A DNA stretch of 64,000 nucleotides from [Eubacterium] siraeum (GTDB lineage: Bacteria > Bacillota > Clostridia > Oscillospirales > Ruminococcaceae), in the NCBI GenBank assembly GCA_025150425.1, contig CP102281.1, positions 2,604,001 to 2,668,000 on the forward strand, written 5' to 3'. Each line of letters opens with the position of its first letter. Positions within the stretch are counted from its first letter, which is position 1. The position numbers and the translations under genes were made by a program. The notes beneath the pieces are model-generated. The model did no database searches and was not told the DNA's origin. It saw only the letters and a list, made by a program, of their open reading frames with translations. Positions 12,649 to 64,000 of the stretch are shown piece after piece.

Positions 12649-12742
12649 ATTTTGTTTATAAGATAACTTCAAATAATTACTGAAAATCCGCATCACAACG
12701 TTATATTATAACCGTATTTTGCAAGTTATCAATTCTAAACTT

Positions 12743-12770
12743 GCACAAACGTGCTTGTGCTATAGCACAA
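12743..12770. promoter_or_regulatory. Candidate operator: GCACAA repeats including a 16-bp palindrome
   Basis: GCACAA at 12743-12748, its inverse TTGTGC at 12755-12760 and GCACAA again at 12765-12770. The last two form the perfect palindrome TTGTGCTATAGCACAA. It ends 16 bases before the -35 box. The same GCACAA hexamer occurs twice before the pucR-divergent ABC promoter (56484 and 56494). PucR is the natural candidate regulator, by inference only. Confidence 0.5.
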
Positions 12771-12786
12771 AACCCTGTAAAACCGG

Positions 12787-12815
12787 TTGACCTTACTGCT
12801 TTTCGGTAGTACAAT
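12787..12815 (+). promoter_or_regulatory. Promoter of the amidohydrolase gene
   Basis: TTGACC (12787-12792) and TACAAT (12810-12815), 17 bases apart. Transcription would start just before the leader hairpin at 12842. Confidence 0.75.
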
Positions 12816-12841
12816 ACAGGTAAAGAAAAAACAAGTACCGC

Positions 12842-12880
12842 AACGGCGCAGGACGATGAAAGTTCTGCGCCGTTTTGTTT
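12842..12880 (+). terminator. Leader terminator/attenuator shared with the 56.6-kb operon
   Basis: A 10-base-pair stem with AACGGCGCAG on one arm and CTGCGCCGTT on the other, around GACGATGAAAGTT, followed by TTGTTT. It lies between promoter and gene, so transcription must pass it. Nearly the same sequence, with another loop, occupies the equivalent place at 56583-56618. This suggests a common read-through control. No antiterminator structure was worked out. Confidence 0.72.
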
Positions 12881-12903
12881 ACAAAGGAAAGGATGACGTA
12901 CAA

Positions 12904-14166
12904 ATGTATGAATGCAGTTTAGACAGAATGAAGGATAAGATCTCCACTTTCAGCAAATTCGGTGATGCTGGCCACGGCGGTATCACACGTTACTCGCTCT
13001 CACCCGAGGCTATTATGGCCCGTAACGAGTTCATCAAGCGTATGAAAGCTATCGGCGCAGAGATCGAGATAGATGATGTTGCTAATATCTACGCAACGCT
13101 CCCCGGCACAGACCCCGACGCAAAGCGTATCGTAATGGCTTCCCACTGTGACTCGGTAAAAAACGGCGGTAACTATGACGGTATACTCGGCGTTATGTCG
13201 GCTATGGAGGTACTTGAAACAGTACACGAGAAGAACATCCCCCATAAGCATCCTCTCACCGCTATGATATGGACAAACGAGGAAGGCTCGCTGTATCCGC
13301 CTGCTATGATGTGTTCGGGTATCGTATGCTACGATTATCTGCCTGAAGATATCAGATGCAAGTTCAAGTATGAGGATATGATGAATTCAAAGAGCATCCT
13401 TGACAATACATCGACATTCGGTGAAGCGCTTGACAAGTCGGGCTTCAAGGGCGACAAGAAGTACCGCCTGTCACCCGACAGATATATGTATATGTTTGAA
13501 ACTCACATCGAGCAAGGTCCTATCCTTGAAGATGCAGGAAACGATATAGGCGTTGTTGACTGTGTACTGGGTATGTTCAACTACAGGCTGAAGTTCTACG
13601 GACAGACGACCCACGCAGGCACATTCCCGATGCCCAAGCGCCGTGACGCATTCTTTGCCGCATCGCAGGCTCTGTGCTATCTGCATGAGGAAATCGACAA
13701 GCTCGGCTACAGCGACCTTGTTTACACAACGGGCGAGGTTGTATGCCACCCTTGCGTACATACCTGCGTACCCGACTTCTTTGACTTCTCGTTCGACTCA
13801 CGTCACGAAGATCCCAAGGTACTTGAAAAGGTACTGGCTATCGTAAAATCCTGCGAGGAAAAAACGTGGGCAGGCTGTACCTGCAAGGTAGAAAAGGCTT
13901 GGAACCGTGATACTGTCTACTGGGATAAGAAGCTGGTAAGCTATGTAAAGACATCCGCAGAAGAATGCGGTATCAAGCACCAGTATATCCACTCAGGCGC
14001 AGGTCACGATGCACAGTTTGCCGCATATATGCTCCCGACAACTATGATATTCGTACAATCGAAGGACGGTCTTTCACACTGCGAGCCGGAATATTCAAGC
14101 CCGGAGCATTGCACTGAGGGCGCAACGGTTATGCTGAATGCTGTTCTCAAGGCAGATAATGATTAA
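12904..14166 (+). CDS. N-carbamoyl amino acid amidohydrolase (hydantoinase/carbamoylase family), probable beta-ureidopropionase
   Basis: An M20-type two-zinc hydrolase of 420 residues from ATG 12904 (MYECSLDRMKDK). Longer in-frame starts lie inside or before the leader terminator and are rejected. Motifs: ASHCDSVKNGGNYDG (zinc His/Asp and bridging Asp), TNEEGSLYPPAM (catalytic Glu pair), HIEQGPILE, GQTTHAGTFPM (dimer-domain substrate His) and SGAGHDAQ. The family removes a carbamoyl group from N-carbamoyl-beta-alanine, N-carbamoyl amino acids or allantoate. Its leader is shared with the importer-aminotransferase-hydantoinase cluster near 56-64 kb, which favours the pyrimidine step (PydC). Substrate choice is inferred. 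Confidence 0.88.
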   Translation: MYECSLDRMKDKISTFSKFGDAGHGGITRYSLSPEAIMARNEFIKRMKAIGAEIEIDDVANIYATLPGTDPDAKRIVMASHCDSVKNGGNYDGILGVMSAMEVLETVHEKNIPHKHPLTAMIWTNEEGSLYPPAMMCSGIVCYDYLPEDIRCKFKYEDMMNSKSILDNTSTFGEALDKSGFKGDKKYRLSPDRYMYMFETHIEQGPILEDAGNDIGVVDCVLGMFNYRLKFYGQTTHAGTFPMPKRRDAFFAASQALCYLHEEIDKLGYSDLVYTTGEVVCHPCVHTCVPDFFDFSFDSRHEDPKVLEKVLAIVKSCEEKTWAGCTCKVEKAWNRDTVYWDKKLVSYVKTSAEECGIKHQYIHSGAGHDAQFAAYMLPTTMIFVQSKDGLSHCEPEYSSPEHCTEGATVMLNAVLKADND

Positions 14167-43933: not shown

Positions 43934-44214
43934 AGAATATGTTAAACCTATGAGTGAGAGTAGTAGCACCCGTCACTGTATGACAGAGAGTTGCCGGTCG
44001 GTGTAAAGGCAATGATACATACGCTTGTGAATGGACTCACGAGGGCAAACCGAGAATATCAGTTTATGATATTTTAGGGGCGACGGACACCTCCGTTACA
44101 GGTCGCACATATGATAGTATGTGTAGCGAGTGACCGTGTTTTATTATACGGTAATTTGGGTGGTACCGCAGGTAAACTATACTCCTGTCCCAATTGGGAC
44201 GGGAGTTTTTTGTT
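43934..44214 (+). promoter_or_regulatory. T-box leader, tryptophan type
   Basis: Stem I runs from about 43950, with the specifier UGG at 44032-44034 in GTGAATGGACTCAC, which pairs partly with the GAGTGAGAG region. The conserved T-box sequence GGGTGGTACCGC is at 44157-44170. A strong terminator, ACTCCTGTCCC-AATT-GGGACGGGAGTTTTTT, occupies 44181-44214. Uncharged tRNA-Trp would stabilise the antiterminator and let transcription reach trpB. UGG is the Trp codon, which agrees with the downstream gene. Identification is by motif; folding was not computed. Confidence 0.92.
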
Positions 44215-55147: not shown

Positions 55148-56302
55148 TTATAAAAACTCCTTTATAAAAAATGAAAGCATAAGCCTTAGCTTGTCCTCAT
55201 AATTCAGCTCACAGCCCAGTATCTCCTTTATCCTTCTCAGCTTGTAGTTTACTGTATTGCGGTGAACGAATGTTATCCTTGCGACCTCCTGCACACTGCT
55301 GTCATTTTCAAGATAGCACTTGAGCGTTTCCATATAATCCGTACCGTTTGCGCTGTCGAATTCTTCAAGCGTACCCAGCGTTTCGTCATATATCTCGTGC
55401 AGTACCGATGTATCTTTTATATGTACAAGCAGCTTGTATATGCCCATATCGCTGTAGGCTACACAGTTTTCGCCGTGCAGGGTAGCCACCTTGAGCGCCA
55501 TTACCGCCTTGCGGTAACCGTCGGATATTGCGGTGTACCCTTGCTTTGACGGGCTTATGCCGCAGGTGAGCGTCGCTCCCTCCCCGCCTGAATTGAAAAT
55601 GGTATCAAATGTCGAAAGAATCTTCCGTACATCCTCTTCTTTACAGTCGGGGCATACTGTCACAAGATTTTTATCCTGAAAGAAAAAGCTGAATTGCCTT
55701 CCGCTTGTATTCAGCACCTTTTGCATGGCGCTTGTGGCGGCTTTTTTCAACTCATCGTCACTAAGCTCGGTTTTGGAAAAGCCGCATACGCCTACGCAAT
55801 AGTCGGATGACGGGAAATAACTGCGCCGTTCAAGCGTCGATTTATATCCCGCCTCGTTCTCCGGCGAAAATATAAGGTTTCTGAGGGCGGTGGCAAGCGC
55901 CGTTTCTATCTCCTCGCCGGTTACTATCCTGTGGCAGAAGTCGTAGGTTATATCTATCAGCTTTACCTCCCACGGTACACTAAACAACGGCAGGGAATTA
56001 ATATCGCAGCAGTCTTTTACGCTTTGCGGTATACTTTTTATATATTTACCTGTGTTGATAACAAGCGCACTGCAACGTTTTTCTATCAGCTCCTCGACAA
56101 ACTTCAGCAGGTGACCTTCATCGTTTATTCCGACCCCTGTCATAAAGACCATTTCGTTTCCGTGAAGAAAAGGTGACACATCAGCGTTTTCAACCAGATG
56201 CACCCAGCGGACGTAGTTCCCCAGTCCCTCTTTTCCCGCAACAAGCTTCATAACGTAATTTGCCTGTGCATTTGCACATAGCTTTGATACTGTAATCGAC
56301 AT
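55148..56302 (-). CDS. PucR-family transcriptional regulator
   Basis: A 384-residue regulator from ATG 56302 (MSITVSKLCANAQ), which has AGAGGTGAG in front; the longer frame lacks one. The N-terminal PucR domain (LVAGKEGLGNYVRWVHLVENADVSPFLHGNEMVFMTG), a GGDEF-like middle region and the C-terminal helix-turn-helix (VARITFVHRNTVNYKLRRIKEILG) match PucR/CdaR regulators, which control purine, allantoin or other nitrogen catabolism. It diverges from the ABC importer operon at 56529, so it is the likely regulator. Its own promoter is at 56398-56426. Confidence 0.93.
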   Translation of the reverse strand: MSITVSKLCANAQANYVMKLVAGKEGLGNYVRWVHLVENADVSPFLHGNEMVFMTGVGINDEGHLLKFVEELIEKRCSALVINTGKYIKSIPQSVKDCCDINSLPLFSVPWEVKLIDITYDFCHRIVTGEEIETALATALRNLIFSPENEAGYKSTLERRSYFPSSDYCVGVCGFSKTELSDDELKKAATSAMQKVLNTSGRQFSFFFQDKNLVTVCPDCKEEDVRKILSTFDTIFNSGGEGATLTCGISPSKQGYTAISDGYRKAVMALKVATLHGENCVAYSDMGIYKLLVHIKDTSVLHEIYDETLGTLEEFDSANGTDYMETLKCYLENDSSVQEVARITFVHRNTVNYKLRRIKEILGCELNYEDKLRLMLSFFIKEFL

Positions 56303-56397: not shown

Positions 56398-56426
56398 AGT
56401 ATAGCACGGTTTTGCATAATTGTCAA
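56398..56426 (-). promoter_or_regulatory. Promoter of pucR
   Basis: On the minus strand TTGACA (56421-56426) and TATACT (56398-56403), 17 bases apart, about 95 bases before the ATG. Confidence 0.8.
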
Positions 56427-56483
56427 GAGAATATTGCAAAATTCAACTACAGCACAAACAAAACGTCTTTCTTTAGGCTCTCT

Positions 56484-56499
56484 GCACAATTCAGCACAA
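56484..56499. promoter_or_regulatory. Candidate operator: two GCACAA direct repeats
   Basis: GCACAA at 56484-56489 and 56494-56499, ten bases apart (one helical turn) and ending six bases before the -35 box. The same hexamer is found at the amidohydrolase promoter near 12.7 kb, where the last copy ends 16 bases before the -35, again one turn different. Confidence 0.5.
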
Positions 56500-56505
56500 A
56501 TGCTA

Positions 56506-56534
56506 TTGCAATGCGATTTTAAGCGTGATATAAT
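56506..56534 (+). promoter_or_regulatory. Promoter of the ABC importer operon
   Basis: TTGCAA (56506-56511) and TATAAT (56529-56534), 17 bases apart. Confidence 0.75.
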
Positions 56535-56582
56535 GCAGTTAAACCGAAAGGAAACAGTGAAATAAAACAAAAAGAAACTTGC

Positions 56583-56618
56583 AACGGCGCAGAAAGTGAT
56601 TTCTGCGCCGTTTTGTTT
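56583..56618 (+). terminator. Leader terminator/attenuator, second copy
   Basis: AACGGCGCAGAAA-GTGA-TTTCTGCGCCGTTTTGTTT. A 13-base stem with a GTGA loop, then a T-rich stretch, located between the promoter and the first gene. The outer arms are the same as at 12842-12880; only the inner part differs. Confidence 0.72.
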
Positions 56619-56672
56619 TGCAGGAATAAAAAGATAAGACTTGCAAAACGGGAAAGAAAGGAGTGCTTAGAA

Positions 56673-57455
56673 ATGAGTGAAAAGGTAAATGCACCGGAGA
56701 TTTCGGTAAAGAACGTCAGTATGGTGTTCTCGGACAGCAAAGGAAATCCGGTACAGGCACTTAAGAATGTAAGCATTGATATTCAGAAAGGTGAGTTCAT
56801 ATCGCTTCTCGGCCCTTCAGGCTGCGGTAAGTCTACACTTCTTCGTATAGTATCGGATCTGCTGACCCCCACCTCAGGCGAGGTTACGGTCTGCGGTAAG
56901 ACACCGAGAGAAACAAGACTTGAGCAGAAGTTCGGTATCGTGTTCCAGAACCCCGTGCTTCTCGACTGGAGAACGGTAAGAAAGAACATAAGACTTCCGC
57001 TTGAGATGATGAAGGTTCCGAAAGAGGAACAGGCGAGCCGTATCGAACAGGTACTGGAGCTTGTCGGACTCAAGGAATTCGGAAACAGCTACCCCGGACA
57101 GCTTTCGGGCGGTATGCAGCAGAGAGTAGGCATAGCAAGAGCGCTTGCGATACAGCCCGACATACTGCTGATGGACGAACCGTTCTCGGCACTTGACGAG
57201 TTCACAAGAGAAAAGCTCAACGACGATGTACTTTCAATATGGAGAAAGACAAACAAGACGGTGCTTTTCGTAACACACAACATATCCGAGTCGGTATATA
57301 TGTCCGACAGGATCTGCGTTTTATCACCGCATCCCGGCAGACTTTCGGCAATAGTTGATGTAAATCTTCCCAGACCGAGAGTTCCGGATATGAGAGGTAC
57401 TCCCGAATTTGCCGCTCTTGTAGAGAAGGTAAGAAACAGCTTCGAGGGTATATAA
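56673..57455 (+). CDS. ABC transporter ATP-binding protein (nitrate/taurine/pyrimidine-type importer)
   Basis: Drives substrate uptake. The start is ATG 56673 (MSEKVNAPEISVKNVSMVF) with AAAGGAG upstream. The 260-residue protein has Walker A LLGPSGCGKSTLL, Q loop FGIVFQNPVLLDW, signature LSGGMQQRVGIARALA, Walker B ILLMDEPFSALDE and H loop VLFVTHNISESVYMSDRI. Its closest type is the TauB/SsuB/ThiZ group that works with NMT1-like binding proteins. Two permeases and the binding protein follow. Confidence 0.94.
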   Translation: MSEKVNAPEISVKNVSMVFSDSKGNPVQALKNVSIDIQKGEFISLLGPSGCGKSTLLRIVSDLLTPTSGEVTVCGKTPRETRLEQKFGIVFQNPVLLDWRTVRKNIRLPLEMMKVPKEEQASRIEQVLELVGLKEFGNSYPGQLSGGMQQRVGIARALAIQPDILLMDEPFSALDEFTREKLNDDVLSIWRKTNKTVLFVTHNISESVYMSDRICVLSPHPGRLSAIVDVNLPRPRVPDMRGTPEFAALVEKVRNSFEGI

Positions 57456-57476: not shown

Positions 57477-58298
57477 ATGATAAAAAGGATAACTTCCTCC
57501 AAAGGCATAGTAACTGCCGTATGGGTGCTGGGTCTTGTAGTGATATGGGAGATATGCGCATTTATAGTAGGAGCGACACAGCGTACACCCGTAAACGTAC
57601 TTCCGCATCTGTACCGGATAATCGGCTCGTTCTTTGATACAAAGTCGATAACCGGTTCGGGCGATACGATAGCAACACTGGTTTTTTCCAGTGCCGCAGA
57701 AACGCTTTCAAGAGCGCTTATCGGTTTTATAATCGGTATGGTGCTGGGCTACATACTGGCTTTGCTGATGCACCTGTCGCACATAGTGGAAAAGATAGCG
57801 TTCCCGTATCTTATGATAATCCAGATGATACCTATTCTCGGTATGGCGCCTATTGTACTTTCAATAACGGGCGATATATCAAGCGCACGAATCATAATCG
57901 CCGCAATTCTCACATTCTACCCCGTTTCGACAAATACGCTGGCAGGCTTCAAGTCGGTCGGACGTGAAAGACACGAGCTGATGAGATCCTACGGTGCAAG
58001 CAAGTTTCAGCTTTACACAAAGATGCTTATCCCGTCGGCAATGTCCTACTTCTTCACGGGTCTTAAAATCTCGGCACCTATGGCGATAACAGCATCTATC
58101 CTTGTAGATACGCTTCAGGGCGGCAACGGTCTTGGCTGTATGCTCTCCCAGTCGCTGAAAGGCTCGATGACAAGATTCGTATTCTGGGATATAGTAATAT
58201 TCAGCGCAGTTATAGGCGTGCTGAGCTTCTATCTTATGGGCGTTATCGAAAGAGCGATAACACCGGCGAAAAGAAAGGCAAAGAAAAAAGCACAGTAA
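57477..58298 (+). CDS. ABC transporter permease, first of two
   Basis: A 273-residue inner-membrane protein with six helices. The TauC-like pattern FLRALIGFIIGMVLGYILALLM-like segment and the coupling helix (ELMRSYGASKFQLYTKMLIPSAMSYFFTGLKI) are visible. It is 21 bases downstream of the ATPase gene and lies before a second, related permease. Two unlike permeases suggest a heterodimer. Confidence 0.92.
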   Translation: MIKRITSSKGIVTAVWVLGLVVIWEICAFIVGATQRTPVNVLPHLYRIIGSFFDTKSITGSGDTIATLVFSSAAETLSRALIGFIIGMVLGYILALLMHLSHIVEKIAFPYLMIIQMIPILGMAPIVLSITGDISSARIIIAAILTFYPVSTNTLAGFKSVGRERHELMRSYGASKFQLYTKMLIPSAMSYFFTGLKISAPMAITASILVDTLQGGNGLGCMLSQSLKGSMTRFVFWDIVIFSAVIGVLSFYLMGVIERAITPAKRKAKKKAQ

Positions 58299-58316: not shown

Positions 58317-59120
58317 TTGAAAGGCAAGGTAATCAAAAACATCATAACAACAGTCGGCCTGCCCGTACTGTTCGGAGCATTGATATTCACACTGTGGCAG
58401 ACAAAGGTTCTGCACGCACTGTTCAAAACGGATGAGATAATCCTTCCGCTCCCGACAAGAATAGGCTCAATCATAGGCGATAACTTTACAAATATGTTAC
58501 CGCAGATAGCGTCAACTCTTATAGTGGCGCTCGGAGGACTTGTACTCGGCTCGATACTCGGTTACTTCATCGGCGTTGCCGGTGCGGTATTCAAGAAGTG
58601 GGGCATGGGTGGTCTGACCATAGTATCCGCATTCAACGCAATCCCGCTCGTAGCACTCGCTCCGGTTATCAACAACTGGACAAGGGATCTGTCGGGCGTG
58701 GTAGATATAAGAAGTACGGTGGCTAAGATAATCACCGTTACGATATTCTGCACAGCTTCAATGAGCGTAAACGCATACAGAGGTCTGACGGAGGTGAAAC
58801 CGTTCTCGGAGGATCTGTTTGCATCATACGGTTCAAGCAAGCTGAAAATGTTCTTCAAGCTGAGGCTCCCGAACTCACTGCCCTATGTATTCACGGCTTT
58901 AAGAGTAAGCGTTCCGTCCTGTATAATCGGTGCGGTAGTATGCGAATACTTCGCAGAGCAGGTAATCGGTGTCGGCAGACAGATAAGAGAGAACATAGTC
59001 AAGGGTCAGTTCCCGACAGCGTGGGCATATATAACGATAGCCTGCGTAATGGGCATACTGATGTACATCATACTCCTCACAGTTGAGGCAATCGTGCTGA
59101 AAAACCGCCGTGCAAGATAA
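58317..59120 (+). CDS. ABC transporter permease, second of two
   Basis: A 267-residue protein with six helices and the coupling helix DLFASYGSSKLKMFFKLRLPNSLPYVFTALR. The start codon is TTG (58317, LKGKVIKNIITTVG), with GGAAAGGACTG upstream; no better ATG exists. It is paralogous to the first permease. Then a 225-base gap without a gene precedes the binding-protein gene. Confidence 0.92.
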   Translation: MKGKVIKNIITTVGLPVLFGALIFTLWQTKVLHALFKTDEIILPLPTRIGSIIGDNFTNMLPQIASTLIVALGGLVLGSILGYFIGVAGAVFKKWGMGGLTIVSAFNAIPLVALAPVINNWTRDLSGVVDIRSTVAKIITVTIFCTASMSVNAYRGLTEVKPFSEDLFASYGSSKLKMFFKLRLPNSLPYVFTALRVSVPSCIIGAVVCEYFAEQVIGVGRQIRENIVKGQFPTAWAYITIACVMGILMYIILLTVEAIVLKNRRAR

Positions 59121-59345: not shown

Positions 59346-60494
59346 ATGAAAAACAAAAGAGTGTTAGCGGCATTACTCGCAGCAAGCTGTCTTGCTACAT
59401 CGTTCACCGCTTGTTCCGGTGACAGCTCATCAAGCAGCACTGCAGAAAGCTCAGCCGCATCGGCAGACGCTTCTTCAAGCGCCGCAGAGGGTTCTTCGGA
59501 AAGCACAGGTCTTATGAGCGATGAAGAAATCATCAAGAAGGCTTCAAGCGAAAACAAGGTCGGCAACTGGGGTCTCGGCAACGAGTACGAAATTCAGGCT
59601 CTGCTTTCAAAGTACGGTCTGCCCACAGATTATATCACAATGGACTTCACAATGGATCAGATAGATAAGGATACTATTACGCTGGCATCGGCAATGACAT
59701 TCAACGAGCTTGGTCTTATCAAGAACAACTATGACGGCGGTTATAACTACGGCGATGAGATCGGTGTCATCGATATGAACGATGAGGGTGTTGCGATGCT
59801 CGAGGATAACCTGTTCTGCACAAAGGAATTCGCAAAGAACAACCCCAATACAGTAAAGGCATTCGTTGCCGCATCAATGAAGGGCTGGACATATGCGTGC
59901 GAGCATCCCGATGAAGCCGCAGAAATCGTATTCAAGTACGGCTCATCGGTATCGGCTGACCACCAGAAGTATATGGCTTCAGAGGTTGCAAAGCTTGTAA
60001 CGACAGATACAAAGGGCAATGCGGTTTCCGCTTCGGATGTAGGTAAGATGGACGAAGACGCTATGCAGCAGACACTTGACCTTGCTAAGCAGTACATCAA
60101 GCTTGATGACGCTACAGCGGCAGACAAGCTCGCTAAGCTTACACTTGATGACATCCGTTCTTCCGACTATCTGACATATGACGGCGGAGCAGTTGAGAAG
60201 TCTGACCTCAAGGTTCAGCTTAAATGGTTACCACAGGCTCAGTTCATGGGCTATTATGTAGCACTTGACAAGGGCTACTACAAAGATAACGGCCTTAACG
60301 TAGAGATCGTAAGCGGCGGCGGTGACGTTTCTGAAACAGTTGCAGTAAGCAACGGTACTGTTGACTTCGGTGTAACGTGGGTTTCTAACCTTATCAACGC
60401 CAACGCAGGCGGTATGGAGCTTCTCGAAGTAGCTCAGGTATATCAGAGATCAGGTCTTGTTCTTTGCTACAAGAAGAGCCAGTTTACAAAGTAA
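59346..60494 (+). CDS. ABC substrate-binding lipoprotein, NMT1/THI5-like, circularly permuted
   Basis: A 382-residue lipoprotein: signal to the Cys at 23 (FTAC), Ser/Ala/Glu linker (24-56), then two domain parts in reversed order. Residues 71-275 (KVGNWGLGNEYEIQALL, LASAMTFNELGLI, VIDMNDEGVAMLEDNLF, GWTYACEHPDEAAEIV) match what is normally the second half of this family. Residues 288-378 (LKVQLKWLPQAQFMGYYVALDKGYYKDNGLNVEIV, FGVTWVSNLI, VAQVYQRSGLVLCYKKS) match the normal first half. The last residues would join the first in a standard protein. GAAAGGATGAAACATT precedes the ATG. Confidence 0.93.
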   Translation: MKNKRVLAALLAASCLATSFTACSGDSSSSSTAESSAASADASSSAAEGSSESTGLMSDEEIIKKASSENKVGNWGLGNEYEIQALLSKYGLPTDYITMDFTMDQIDKDTITLASAMTFNELGLIKNNYDGGYNYGDEIGVIDMNDEGVAMLEDNLFCTKEFAKNNPNTVKAFVAASMKGWTYACEHPDEAAEIVFKYGSSVSADHQKYMASEVAKLVTTDTKGNAVSASDVGKMDEDAMQQTLDLAKQYIKLDDATAADKLAKLTLDDIRSSDYLTYDGGAVEKSDLKVQLKWLPQAQFMGYYVALDKGYYKDNGLNVEIVSGGGDVSETVAVSNGTVDFGVTWVSNLINANAGGMELLEVAQVYQRSGLVLCYKKSQFTK

Positions 60495-60536: not shown

Positions 60537-60995
60537 ATGAGCGAAAAGAAAATACTTGTAAGCGGTTGCCTTTTCGGCTGGCATTGCCGCTATGATGACG
60601 GCGATACGCCGTGTCTGCACCCACAGTTCCTTAAATGGAAAGAGGAGGGCAGACTGATACCGGTATGTCCCGAAGTGTTCGGCGGTCTTCCGACCCCACG
60701 TCCCGATTGTCAGCGTACAGGCGATAAGGTGATGAGCTGCGCAGGCGGCGACTGCACCGAGCAGTACACAAAAGGCGCAAACGAGGCGTTAAGACTTGCA
60801 AAGGAAAACGATGTTGCTCTTTGCATAATGAAAGAAGACAGCCCCTCCTGCGGAAGCACCCACATATATGACGGTACCTTCACGGATACGATCATCGAGG
60901 GACAGGGGCTTGCGGTAGAATATCTCAGAAACGCAGGCTACAAGGTATTCAGCGAGAATATGATTGAAGAAGTCATAAAGGCACTCGCAAAGTAA
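60537..60995 (+). CDS. DUF523 family protein
   Basis: A 152-residue protein with the family sequence VSGCLFGWHCRYDD, then PVCPEVFGGLPTPRPDCQ and CIMKEDSPSCGSTHIYDG; the conserved cysteines suggest metal or redox chemistry. The family role is unknown. It is encoded between the binding protein and the dehydrogenase on the same strand, an unusual but steady-looking position in this operon. AAAGGCGG precedes the ATG. Confidence 0.88.
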   Translation: MSEKKILVSGCLFGWHCRYDDGDTPCLHPQFLKWKEEGRLIPVCPEVFGGLPTPRPDCQRTGDKVMSCAGGDCTEQYTKGANEALRLAKENDVALCIMKEDSPSCGSTHIYDGTFTDTIIEGQGLAVEYLRNAGYKVFSENMIEEVIKALAK

Positions 60996-61026: not shown

Positions 61027-61123
61027 ATCGCACGAGCAGTTAAATACCGTTCGTGCGATCGGGAAAGACGTCAGGGCGGACGTATCACGGCACAGCGGTC
61101 GTTTCGCTCCGACGTTTTTCCCG
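61027..61123 (+). other. Two adjacent hairpins in the operon, structured intergenic RNA
   Basis: ATCGCACGA-N15-TCGTGCGAT (61027-61059), followed immediately by a 13-base stem CGGGAAAGACGTC/GACGTTTTTCCCG (61060-61123, one G-T pair) with a smaller AGCG/CGCT arm inside. No T run follows at once. This could be a processing or stability element between the importer genes and the enzymes. I recognise no riboswitch. Confidence 0.6.
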
Positions 61124-61170: not shown

Positions 61171-62310
61171 GTGGTATTCAGATCACCACCAACGATTATT
61201 TACGGCAAGGGTACAGTTACCTCAGTCGGAGAGCAGGCGGCCCGCTTCGGAAAAAGGGCGGTGCTTGTCTGCGGAAAAGGCTCGCTTAGAAAAAGCGGAG
61301 TGCTTGATATTATAGTATCAAGCCTCGAAAAAGCAGGCGTTTCCTGTGCGGTATACGACCGTGTAGGCTCAGACCCGACCACATCGGATGTTGACAAGGG
61401 TGCGGCTTTTGCAAAGGAAAACGGCTGTGATGTAATAGTAGCGGCAGGCGGAGGAAGTCCTCTTGATGCGGCAAAGGGAATCGGAATGCTGCTCACAAAC
61501 GGCGGCAAGGTGACCGATTACGAAAAGACCGCTCCCGAAAAGGAGTCGCTCCCCATTATCGCAATACCGACCACAGCCGGCACAGGCAGTGAAGCGACAA
61601 GATACTCGGTAATCACAGATACCGACAGAAACATAAAGATGCTGTTATCGACAGACGGAATCATTCCGAAGGTAGCAATTCTTGACTTTGCGATAACAAA
61701 ATCATTGCCGCCGTTTATGACAGCGGCAACCGGAATGGATGCTCTGACCCACGCAATAGAGAGCTACATAAACGTCAACGCATCGCCTATGACAAAGATG
61801 TATTCGCTTGAAGCGATAAGGCTGATTTCAAAGAGCTTAATCCCGGCTGTCCTTGACGGCAGGAACGAGCAGGCAAGAGAGGATATGCTCCTTGCCGCCT
61901 TATATGCCGGAATCGCAATATGCAGTACGCCGACAGCGCTTGTTCACTCAATGTCAAGACCGCTCGGAGCGTGGTTCCATATTCCGCACGGTCTCGCAAA
62001 CGCAATGCTTCTAAGTACGGTTATGGAATATAACCGCCCGTCCTGCCCCGAAAAATTCCGTGACATCGCAATAGCGATGGGTGAGAATGTCGAGGGCTTG
62101 TCGGTAAGAGAGGCAAGTATAGCGGCAGTTGAAGCTATCGCCGCAATAGCGGACGAAACAGGACTTCCGAAGCTGCTTTCTTCACAGGGAGTAACAGAGG
62201 ACAAGATACCGACTCTTGCAAAGGACGCATTCGCCGCAGGAAGTACGGCTAACAACCCCAGAGTTCCCACAGTAGAAGAAATCGAAACGATATATAAAAG
62301 TATTTTCTGA
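61171..62310 (+). CDS. Iron-containing alcohol dehydrogenase, candidate malonate-semialdehyde reductase
   Basis: A 379-residue group III dehydrogenase. The start is GTG 61171 (MVFRSPPTIIYGKG) with GGAAAGAGGG upstream. NAD motif GGGSPLDAAKGIG, PTTAGTGSEATRYSVITD, and metal ligands in DALTHAIESYIN (Asp and His) and HSMSRPLGAWFHIPHGLANAM (His residues) are seen. In this cluster it could reduce the aldehyde formed from beta-alanine to 3-hydroxypropionate. That role is inferred from neighbours; other aldehydes are possible. Confidence 0.9.
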   Translation: MVFRSPPTIIYGKGTVTSVGEQAARFGKRAVLVCGKGSLRKSGVLDIIVSSLEKAGVSCAVYDRVGSDPTTSDVDKGAAFAKENGCDVIVAAGGGSPLDAAKGIGMLLTNGGKVTDYEKTAPEKESLPIIAIPTTAGTGSEATRYSVITDTDRNIKMLLSTDGIIPKVAILDFAITKSLPPFMTAATGMDALTHAIESYINVNASPMTKMYSLEAIRLISKSLIPAVLDGRNEQAREDMLLAALYAGIAICSTPTALVHSMSRPLGAWFHIPHGLANAMLLSTVMEYNRPSCPEKFRDIAIAMGENVEGLSVREASIAAVEAIAAIADETGLPKLLSSQGVTEDKIPTLAKDAFAAGSTANNPRVPTVEEIETIYKSIF

Positions 62311-62331: not shown

Positions 62332-63669
62332 ATGAGATACGGATTCAAAAACGCAGAAGAGGTAAAGGAAACCTCCCTTAAGTACAACCTTCATTCGTGG
62401 AGCGTTCAGGGCAAGCTGAACCCCGCAGTAGTAGAAAAGGCAGAGGGTATTTATTACTATACCGCAGACGGCAAGAAGATGGCTGATATGTCAAGCCAGC
62501 TTGTAAACCTGAATGTCGGCTACGGCAACAAGGATATTATCGACGCTATCAAGGAGCAGGCAGAAAAGCTCGCATACATCAGCCCGGCTTACGCTATCGA
62601 CTGCCGTTCAAAGCTCGCAGAGATGGTCGTAAAGGCAGCTCCGAAGAATATGGGCAAGGTATTCTTCACCTTAGGCGGCGCAGACGCTAACGAGAATGCA
62701 ATAAAGATTGCAAAGCTGGTTACAGGCAGATACAAGATATTCTCAAGATACCGTGCATATCACGGAAGCTCATTCGGCGCAGGTAACCTGACAGGCGAGC
62801 CCAGAAGATACACACTTGAACCCGGTATCCCCGGCTTCGTAAAGTTTACAGATCCTTATCTGTATCACGCTCCGTTCCCCTTTGAGAGCGAAGAACAGGC
62901 TACAGAGTATTATCTCGGACAGCTCCGTGACCAGATTATATACGAAAATCCCGATGCGGTTGCCGCTATCGTAATGGAATCGGTAACAGGCTCAAACGGT
63001 ATCATCATCCCGCCCAAAGGCTACTTACAGGGTGTACGCAAGATATGCGACGAGTTCGGCATTATGATGGTCTGCGACGAGGTAATGGCAGGCTGGGGCA
63101 GAACAGGCGAATACTTCGCTTGTGAAAACTGGGGCATCGAGCCTGATATGATAACCTTCGCAAAGGGCGTTACCTGCGGATACGCTCCTCTCGGCGGCGT
63201 AATCGTAAGCAAGAAGATTGCTGAGTTCTTCGATACACACAAACTCGACTGCGGTCTTACATATTCAGCTCATCCTCTGGGCTGTGCCGCAGGTGTTGCG
63301 TGCCTTAACTTCTATGAAAAAGAACACATTATGGATAAGGTAAAGGAGCGTGGCAAGCAGTTAGGCGCACTCCTTGAGGATATAAAGGCAAAGCACAAGA
63401 GCGTGGGTGATGTGCGTTATATCGGCCTGTTCTCCTGCGTAGAGCTTACAAAGGATAAGGCAACGCACGAGCCTCTCGTTCCTTTCGGCAAGGACCCTGA
63501 GGGCATTATGGGCAAGATAGTCGGAATGTTAAAGGCTAAGGGCTTCAACACATATTCACACGAGGCTTGCATTTTCGTTTGCCCGCCTCTCATTATCACA
63601 GAAGAAGAGCTTGCAGAGAATATGGCAATACTGGACGAAGTTCTGACAGAAGTAGACAAGATGGTCTGA
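62332..63669 (+). CDS. Class III aminotransferase, candidate beta-alanine aminotransferase
   Basis: A 445-residue PLP enzyme. PLP features: GGADANENAIKIAK, YRAYHGSSFGAG, the Asp of VCDEVMAGWGRTG and the Schiff-base Lys in DMITFAKGVTCGYAPLGG. The fold is of the omega-amino acid/4-aminobutyrate type. With a hydantoinase and carbamoylase it probably transfers the amino group of beta-alanine (pyrimidine route) to an oxo acid. AAAGGAAGAAAC precedes the ATG, 21 bases after the dehydrogenase. Confidence 0.92.
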   Translation: MRYGFKNAEEVKETSLKYNLHSWSVQGKLNPAVVEKAEGIYYYTADGKKMADMSSQLVNLNVGYGNKDIIDAIKEQAEKLAYISPAYAIDCRSKLAEMVVKAAPKNMGKVFFTLGGADANENAIKIAKLVTGRYKIFSRYRAYHGSSFGAGNLTGEPRRYTLEPGIPGFVKFTDPYLYHAPFPFESEEQATEYYLGQLRDQIIYENPDAVAAIVMESVTGSNGIIIPPKGYLQGVRKICDEFGIMMVCDEVMAGWGRTGEYFACENWGIEPDMITFAKGVTCGYAPLGGVIVSKKIAEFFDTHKLDCGLTYSAHPLGCAAGVACLNFYEKEHIMDKVKERGKQLGALLEDIKAKHKSVGDVRYIGLFSCVELTKDKATHEPLVPFGKDPEGIMGKIVGMLKAKGFNTYSHEACIFVCPPLIITEEELAENMAILDEVLTEVDKMV

Positions 63670-63704: not shown

Positions 63705-64000
63705 ATGGATCTCATAATCAAAAACGGTACGATAGTTTCACCAACGGCTACATTCAAAGCCGATGTGTGCGTGGATAACGGCAAGATAGTTGCAATAACG
63801 GCAGATGCCGGCACAGATGCCGACAAGGTGGTAGACGCAAGCGGCAAGATGGTGCTCCCCGGTGCCATTGACGCACATACCCACCTTGCAATGCCCTTCG
63901 GCGGCACAATTTCATCCGATGACTACTACGCAGGCACAAGAGCAGCCGCCTGCGGCGGTACGACAACGGTATTCGACTTCATTTTACAGGATTTCGGTGA
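63705..64000 (+). CDS. Hydantoinase/dihydropyrimidinase (partial)
   Basis: The first 98 codons of a cyclic amidohydrolase; the gene continues past the window. ATG 63705 has AAAGGACGG upstream. The beginning MDLIIKNGTIVSPTATFKADVCVDNGKIVAI and the metal motif MVLPGAIDAHTHLAMPFGGTISSDDYYAGTRAAACGGTTTVFDF match D-hydantoinase and dihydropyrimidinase. It would open the dihydropyrimidine ring. The carboxylated lysine and later ligands lie outside the window. Confidence 0.93.
   Translation, partial: MDLIIKNGTIVSPTATFKADVCVDNGKIVAITADAGTDADKVVDASGKMVLPGAIDAHTHLAMPFGGTISSDDYYAGTRAAACGGTTTVFDFILQDFG

Follow-up and report, generated by a model that had tools for sequence, protein, structure and literature searches.

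A putative single-hexaloop ANTAR-type attenuator tying pyrimidine catabolism to nitrogen shortage in [Eubacterium] siraeum

The leaders of the two pyrimidine-degradation loci in the window (the whole 64,000-nt stretch of contig CP102281.1 that was analysed) are most readily understood as ANTAR-type attenuators cut down to one hexaloop, so that pyrimidine catabolism would need both a PucR inducer and nitrogen shortage; we hold this reading with reasonable though not high confidence. In both leaders, the start of the terminator 5′ arm can refold into a small hairpin with the loop AAYGRN and a C-G closing pair. An ANTAR protein is the presumed binder of this hairpin, nitrogen limitation the presumed signal, and PucR the candidate regulator acting on GCACAA sites upstream. 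The arrangement points to a pared-down form of a known protein-controlled RNA switch that would couple pyrimidine use to nitrogen shortage. The preliminary description of this DNA had placed both loci in a single pyrimidine/hydantoin regulon. Treating them as one regulon is sound, but the hairpin is not restricted to pyrimidine genes, as amtB has the same leader type; moreover, that description held no antiterminator alternative, which the hexaloop fold supplies.

Genes of the reductive pyrimidine pathway

The genes and control elements of the two loci are collected in Table 1. PydA, PydB and PydC are all encoded, with profile matches above cut-off; the dihydropyrimidine dehydrogenase gene (PreA/PydA, NF006183 above cut-off) was found 3′ of PydB, beyond the end of the window, and the importer operon has the order importer-TudS-pydE-pydD-pydB-pydA. 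The PydD and PydE candidates belong to the expected families and stand in the appropriate gene context, their substrate specificities being predicted. The whole reductive pyrimidine pathway is encoded across the two loci, as had been proposed at the outset. In several other members of the genus (G013, G029 and G011), pydC has the orientation of the permease gene and was located about 8-9 kb 3′ of it, and this, together with the jointly encoded pathway, makes it sound to treat both loci as one regulon. The gene stands apart with its own control region in the present genome (G000) and in G031, and on a different contig from the importer genes in G025 and G024; in relatives it adjoins a preA- or Fe-ADH-like coding sequence, as read directly.

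A reductive pyrimidine degradation (Pyd) cluster was described in Clostridium chromiireducens (PMC7332683). The genes reported here are alike in comprising a PydA-like PreA, PydB, PydC and probable PydD and PydE, but pydC lies 44 kb off under a separate copy of the control region, and the operon additionally encodes a TudS-family protein and an ABC importer whose binding protein is permuted. The solute-binding protein is permuted in that its residues 289-354 correspond to 4nmy positions 9-73, and its residues 140-212 to positions 181-256; by eye, the binding proteins of the relatives G013, G057 and G033 seem to be arranged alike. A strong hairpin (61057-61122) separating the TudS gene from the Fe-ADH gene holds two A-N2-G hexaloops 3 nt apart; it is kept in G031 and G025 and changed in G024, with the hexaloops kept just partly. 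One PreA (L003, 3148-4632) carries about 94 additional N-terminal residues outside the family match.

Table 1. Genes and control elements of the pydC and importer loci (positions in the window)
Feature	Positions	Strand	Remarks
TGCAAG-N14-CTTGCA inverted repeat, candidate nitrogen DNA operator	12720-12745	.	5′ of pydC
GCACAA half-site upstream of pydC	12743-12748	+	kept in G031 and G025
Perfect palindrome TTGTGCTATAGCACAA (TTGTGC-TATA-GCACAA), candidate PucR-type operator	12755-12770	.	final GCACAA copy 12765-12770, ending 16 bases before the -35 box
pydC promoter TTGACC-17-TACAAT, sigma-70-type	12787-12815	+	kept in L004 and L005
pydC hexaloop hairpin GC-AACGGC-GC, ANTAR P2-like	12840-12849	+	2-bp stem, then C.A mismatch
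pydC intrinsic terminator	12842-12881	+	stem 12842-12874 plus U-rich tail; excludes the hexaloop hairpin
pydC, M20 amidohydrolase, N-carbamoyl-amino-acid (probable ureidopropionase)	12904-14166	+	NF006771 and TIGR01879 above cut-off; ATG at 12904
PucR-family regulator, divergent from importer operon	55148-56302	-	PF07905, PF13556; ATG at 56302
Terminator-like hairpin, pucR leader, no AAYGRN loop	56336-56374	-	same position, changed sequence in G025 and G024
Degenerate TGCA-N18-TGCA form of candidate nitrogen operator	56413-56438	.	overlaps pucR -35 region
GCACAA half-site	56452-56457	+	kept in G031, G025 and G024
GCACAATTCAGCACAA direct repeat, importer promoter	56484-56499	+	copies 56484-56489 and 56494-56499, ending 16 and 6 bases before the -35 box
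Importer operon promoter TTGCAA-17-TATAAT, sigma-70-type	56506-56534	+	
Importer hexaloop hairpin UUGC-AACGGC-GCAG, ANTAR P2-like	56579-56592	+	4-bp stem
Importer intrinsic terminator	56583-56620	+	stem 56583-56612 plus U-rich tail
ABC importer ATPase	56673-57455	+	ATG at 56673
Two ABC importer permeases	57477-58298, 58317-59120	+	PF00528
Solute-binding lipoprotein, circularly permuted NMT1/ThiY-like	59346-60494	+	
2-thiouracil desulfurase (TudS) family protein	60537-60995	+	PF04463
Iron-containing alcohol dehydrogenase, probable malonic semialdehyde reductase (PydE)	61171-62310	+	PF00465; role by context
Class III aminotransferase, probable beta-alanine aminotransferase (PydD)	62332-63669	+	PF00202; role by context
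Dihydropyrimidinase (PydB), start	63705-64000	+	runs past window end; TIGR02033 above cut-off

A hexaloop hairpin inside the leader terminators

Each terminator lies 3′ of its promoter and 5′ of the first gene. Both hairpins share identical 10-nt outer arms (AACGGCGCAG and CTGCGCCGTT) followed by TTGTTT, which bears out the preliminary description of a common hairpin between promoter and first gene. The genome search it had called for returned exactly these two pyrimidine loci in the 2.69-Mb genome, the reversed control giving no matches; within the window the arm pattern was found twice against 0.00 expected, and chance recurrence was ruled out on both counts. The order promoter-terminator-start was observed for 3 of the 136 terminator-like hairpins of a 464-kb genome sample, two of the three being the pydC and importer leaders, in a scan that required an ungapped stem and missed the amtB leader. 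Across the genus, the terminators of importer-operon leaders differed considerably in sequence, and the arms as such are therefore not the conserved feature; at L021, the pydC and importer leaders are both present with different arms. The identity of the arms seems to reflect largely the loop and stem letters common to both leaders. The arm pattern also matched in genomes G009, G035, G077, G092 and G119; as leaders, the G092 match was rejected as a gene-end terminator between convergent genes, the G119 match as lying within a coding sequence, and the G009 and G035 matches for want of leader context. A leader peptide was discarded because L004 no longer has the ATG found in the pydC loop. PyrR-like or T-box control was likewise dropped, since an Rfam scan gave no family matching the leaders and the only T-box was at 43941. 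Near position 1367 of L149 (minus strand), a promoter-terminator-start leader without a hexaloop precedes the gene of a 171-aa protein.

The hexaloop hairpin overlaps the 5′ arm of the intrinsic terminator, and the two folds are mutually exclusive. ANTAR targets have a stem of at least 3 bp below the loop; it measures 4 bp in the importer leader and 3 bp in amtB, and just 2 bp before the mismatch in pydC of this genome and of G025. The amtB leader of this genome reads AGC-AACGGA-GCU, followed by a terminator and TTTTGTTTT; the corresponding hairpin is GAC-AAUGGC-GUC in G063 and AAGC-AACGAA-GCUU in Clostridium neonatale. Of the 26 amtB loci inspected across the genus and order, 20 carry the hexaloop, whereas a 400-kb genome sample gave a background rate of 0.027 hairpins of this type per 200 nt. 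One further locus had the loop GAAGGC and five had no element within 420 nt upstream, three of these five lying directly 3′ of an apparent glutamine synthetase gene.

Alignment of 29 amtB, importer and pydC leaders revealed that loop positions A1, A2 and G4 and the closing C-G pair were invariant, partly by choice, the rows having been selected for carrying the loop. In the stem, 91.4% of cells were paired compared with 70.0 in shuffles (0/500 as high), and the covariation score was 0.658 compared with 0.238 in shuffles (0/500) and at most 0.167 in slid registers; stem covariation is less affected by row choice, though the stem was also sought when picking rows. The second stem pair was GC in 20 leaders and AU in 9, without exception. 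A scan of 80 pydC-gene neighbourhoods found further hexaloop leaders: one 5′ of the aminotransferase and Fe-ADH genes (pydD-pydE) at L080, one each 5′ of the importer and of pydC at L021, and one 5′ of a pucR-family gene in C. neonatale (L047, 4350).

Broader searches were less productive. The short motif TATAAT-N-RCAAYGRNGY outperformed its control for amtB alone. A covariance model of promoter plus hairpin was dominated by the promoter and mostly retrieved ordinary promoters, none of its 18 strongest new matches carrying the hexaloop in a leader; it also missed the importer leader because of the longer importer spacer. A brute scan for dual hexaloops returned mainly coding or repeat noise. 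No hexaloop hairpin was found in the leader of the gltB cluster, which adjoins the ANTAR gene.

ANTAR targets carry a second hexaloop hairpin (P1) 2-25 nt upstream. The segment separating P2 from the -10 box was searched for one in 26 leaders, and none contained an A-N2-G hexaloop with 3 bp. In the amtB leaders, the hexaloop hairpin starts 7-11 nt past the -10 box, i.e. at the extreme 5′ end of the RNA, which leaves no room for P1. In genome G096 (L209), three tandem hexaloop-plus-terminator units precede one amtB.

DNA elements upstream of the promoters

The GCACAA copies were found at the spacings from the -35 boxes that the preliminary description had given, and the PucR gene it had noticed is indeed divergent from the importer operon. 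The 56484 copy is kept in G031 and G025, and the 56494 copy is not kept in G031, G025 or G024. The pydC palindrome is the only exact match in the genome with no mismatch allowed. GCACAA/TTGTGC half-sites numbered 37 in pyrimidine promoters compared with 1.5 in shuffles, and 5 in amtB promoters compared with 1.6; a palindrome of at least 10/12 was present in 12 of 17 pyrimidine promoter regions, and the amtB promoters contained no TTGTGC-N4-GCACAA palindrome. This enrichment fits a pathway regulator such as PucR, and TTGTGC-N4-GCACAA is a second, pyrimidine-specific layer and probably the operator of PucR. The divergent protein resembles PucR-family regulators of purine/nitrogen catabolism in having PucR and C-terminal HTH domains and in being encoded divergently from a catabolic operon. 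To our knowledge, the candidate site is not the published PucR box of B. subtilis.

The repeat TGCAAG-N14-CTTGCA occurs at four perfect sites in the whole genome, 5′ of pydC, amtB, the gltB cluster and an aminotransferase-like gene (identified by eye); the three sites outside the window are at G000:C1:238709, 2250802 and 2319555. It is likely to be a nitrogen operator acting on DNA. The pydC control region would accordingly hold two candidate nitrogen elements and one candidate pathway element, and that of the importer a leader, a candidate pathway element and a degenerate candidate nitrogen operator.

The ANTAR model and competing explanations

In ANTAR targets, A1 and G4 are needed in both loops; EutV needs the closing C-G with an A-U below it in the eutP P1 stem, P1 is obligatory for EutV, and ANTAR proteins prevent termination where the hairpin overlaps the terminator (PMC3369931). 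Characterised targets have two hexaloops. The EutV-RNA structure has the dimer contacting a single hexaloop, and the minimal motif was redefined accordingly (PMC8934654). The leaders described here share with EutV/eut, NasR/nasF and AmiR/amiE the A1/G4 hexaloop, the C-G closure and a stem of about 3-5 bp over the terminator (PMC3369931, PMC8934654). Also shared are the position in a leader, the link to nitrogen genes, ammonium transporters among them, and an ANTAR protein encoded by the same genome. The present leaders differ in having the terminator-overlapping P2 alone, with no recruiting P1, and, in amtB, in placing the hairpin at the 5′ terminus of the RNA. That a single hexaloop is gripped per dimer (PMC8934654) makes a one-hexaloop switch plausible, though unproven.

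The sole ANTAR protein of the genome, P0003 (PF03861, 62.3 bits, cut-off 27.3), is encoded within a split glutamate-synthase cluster (glutamate-synthase-like gene, gltB). It aligns with the ANTAR proteins AmiR, EutV, NasR and Rv1626; by eye, the EutV positions K143, M172 and R175 are kept, R142, R168, N173 and R177 differ and K147 is R, and Rv1626 likewise differs from EutV at some of these positions. Among 14 more genomes with the leader, an ANTAR gene was present in 12; the remaining two are 68-72% complete. Across 37 genomes, amtB was present in 21 of 25 with an ANTAR gene and in none of 12 without, a comparison confounded by shared ancestry and completeness.

According to the proposed mechanism, transcription would start about 5-45 nt upstream, and by default the nascent RNA would fold into the strong terminator and transcription would end ahead of the first gene. 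Under nitrogen shortage, activated P0003 would bind the AAYGRN hairpin closed by C-G; as the loop and its 3′ strand form the beginning of the terminator 5′ arm, the bound hairpin would block the terminator and the genes would be transcribed. amtB would be under the same leader element, and its hexaloop makes the leader layer look like nitrogen control. Initiation would be governed separately, by PucR with a pyrimidine-derived inducer at the TTGTGC-N4-GCACAA site specific to pyrimidine promoters, and TGCAAG-N14-CTTGCA would link pydC to other nitrogen genes. Both layers would keep the split-off pydC in step with the remaining pathway.

The leaders could instead be nitrogen-responsive attenuators whose hexaloop is bound by a non-ANTAR factor, either another RNA-binding protein or a small molecule. 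With such a binder, the absence of P1 from 26 of 26 leaders would be accounted for, the co-occurrence of ANTAR genes and leaders could then stem from a nitrogen lifestyle common to both, and the two low-completeness leader-bearing genomes show no ANTAR gene. The A1/G4 loop with C-G closure is, however, the ANTAR signature (PMC3369931), the genome's one ANTAR protein adjoins glutamate synthase genes, and the leaders match no Rfam family, so that we regard a non-ANTAR binder as unlikely, though deserving some weight. The model of the preliminary description, in which PucR or a pyrimidine ligand reads both hairpin and GCACAA as pathway signals, draws on the uniqueness of the arms to two loci in the genome, the GCACAA enrichment in pyd promoters and the divergent PucR. 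It appears improbable, given that amtB has the leader type here and across the order without the GCACAA palindrome and that the two leaders of L021 differ in their arms. The hairpins might also be ordinary unregulated terminators that end small RNAs or short upstream transcripts and are alike by descent, in keeping with the plain GGCGC-armed gene-end terminators of relatives (G092); we consider this very improbable, because a second, mutually exclusive hairpin covaries, the promoter-hexaloop-terminator order is kept before orthologous genes over the whole order, and such leaders are rare in the genome.

Extending the ANTAR model beyond this genome, we lean slightly towards the view that Clostridia widely use a minimal one-hexaloop ANTAR switch, at or near the 5′ extremity of the mRNA and lacking the P1 regarded as obligatory, to gate ammonium uptake and pyrimidine catabolism by nitrogen, combined with pathway-specific control of initiation. 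Why two hexaloops are needed was left open by the structural work in which one was gripped at a time (PMC8934654), and natural one-hexaloop leaders, conserved over an order and in Clostridium, make that question directly testable. Because the dual-hairpin search models of two published ANTAR-target surveys would miss single-hexaloop leaders, current counts may understate the ANTAR regulon of gut Clostridia; lists of known ANTAR targets may already include some clostridial amt leaders. For gut biology, the prediction is that pyrimidine breakdown would be switched on by nitrogen shortage together with an inducer.

Hexaloop leaders were also seen before other genes. At L031 (5640) and L034 (5645), promoter, hexaloop and terminator precede the gene of a 335-aa protein, which at L031 is followed by a second M20 amidohydrolase-like gene, 3′ of pydC and an Fe-ADH gene. 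In a Lachnospiraceae genome (L015, 5198), a hexaloop leader lies before a gene pair that by eye is opine/sarcosine oxidase-like and probably represents another nitrogen source.
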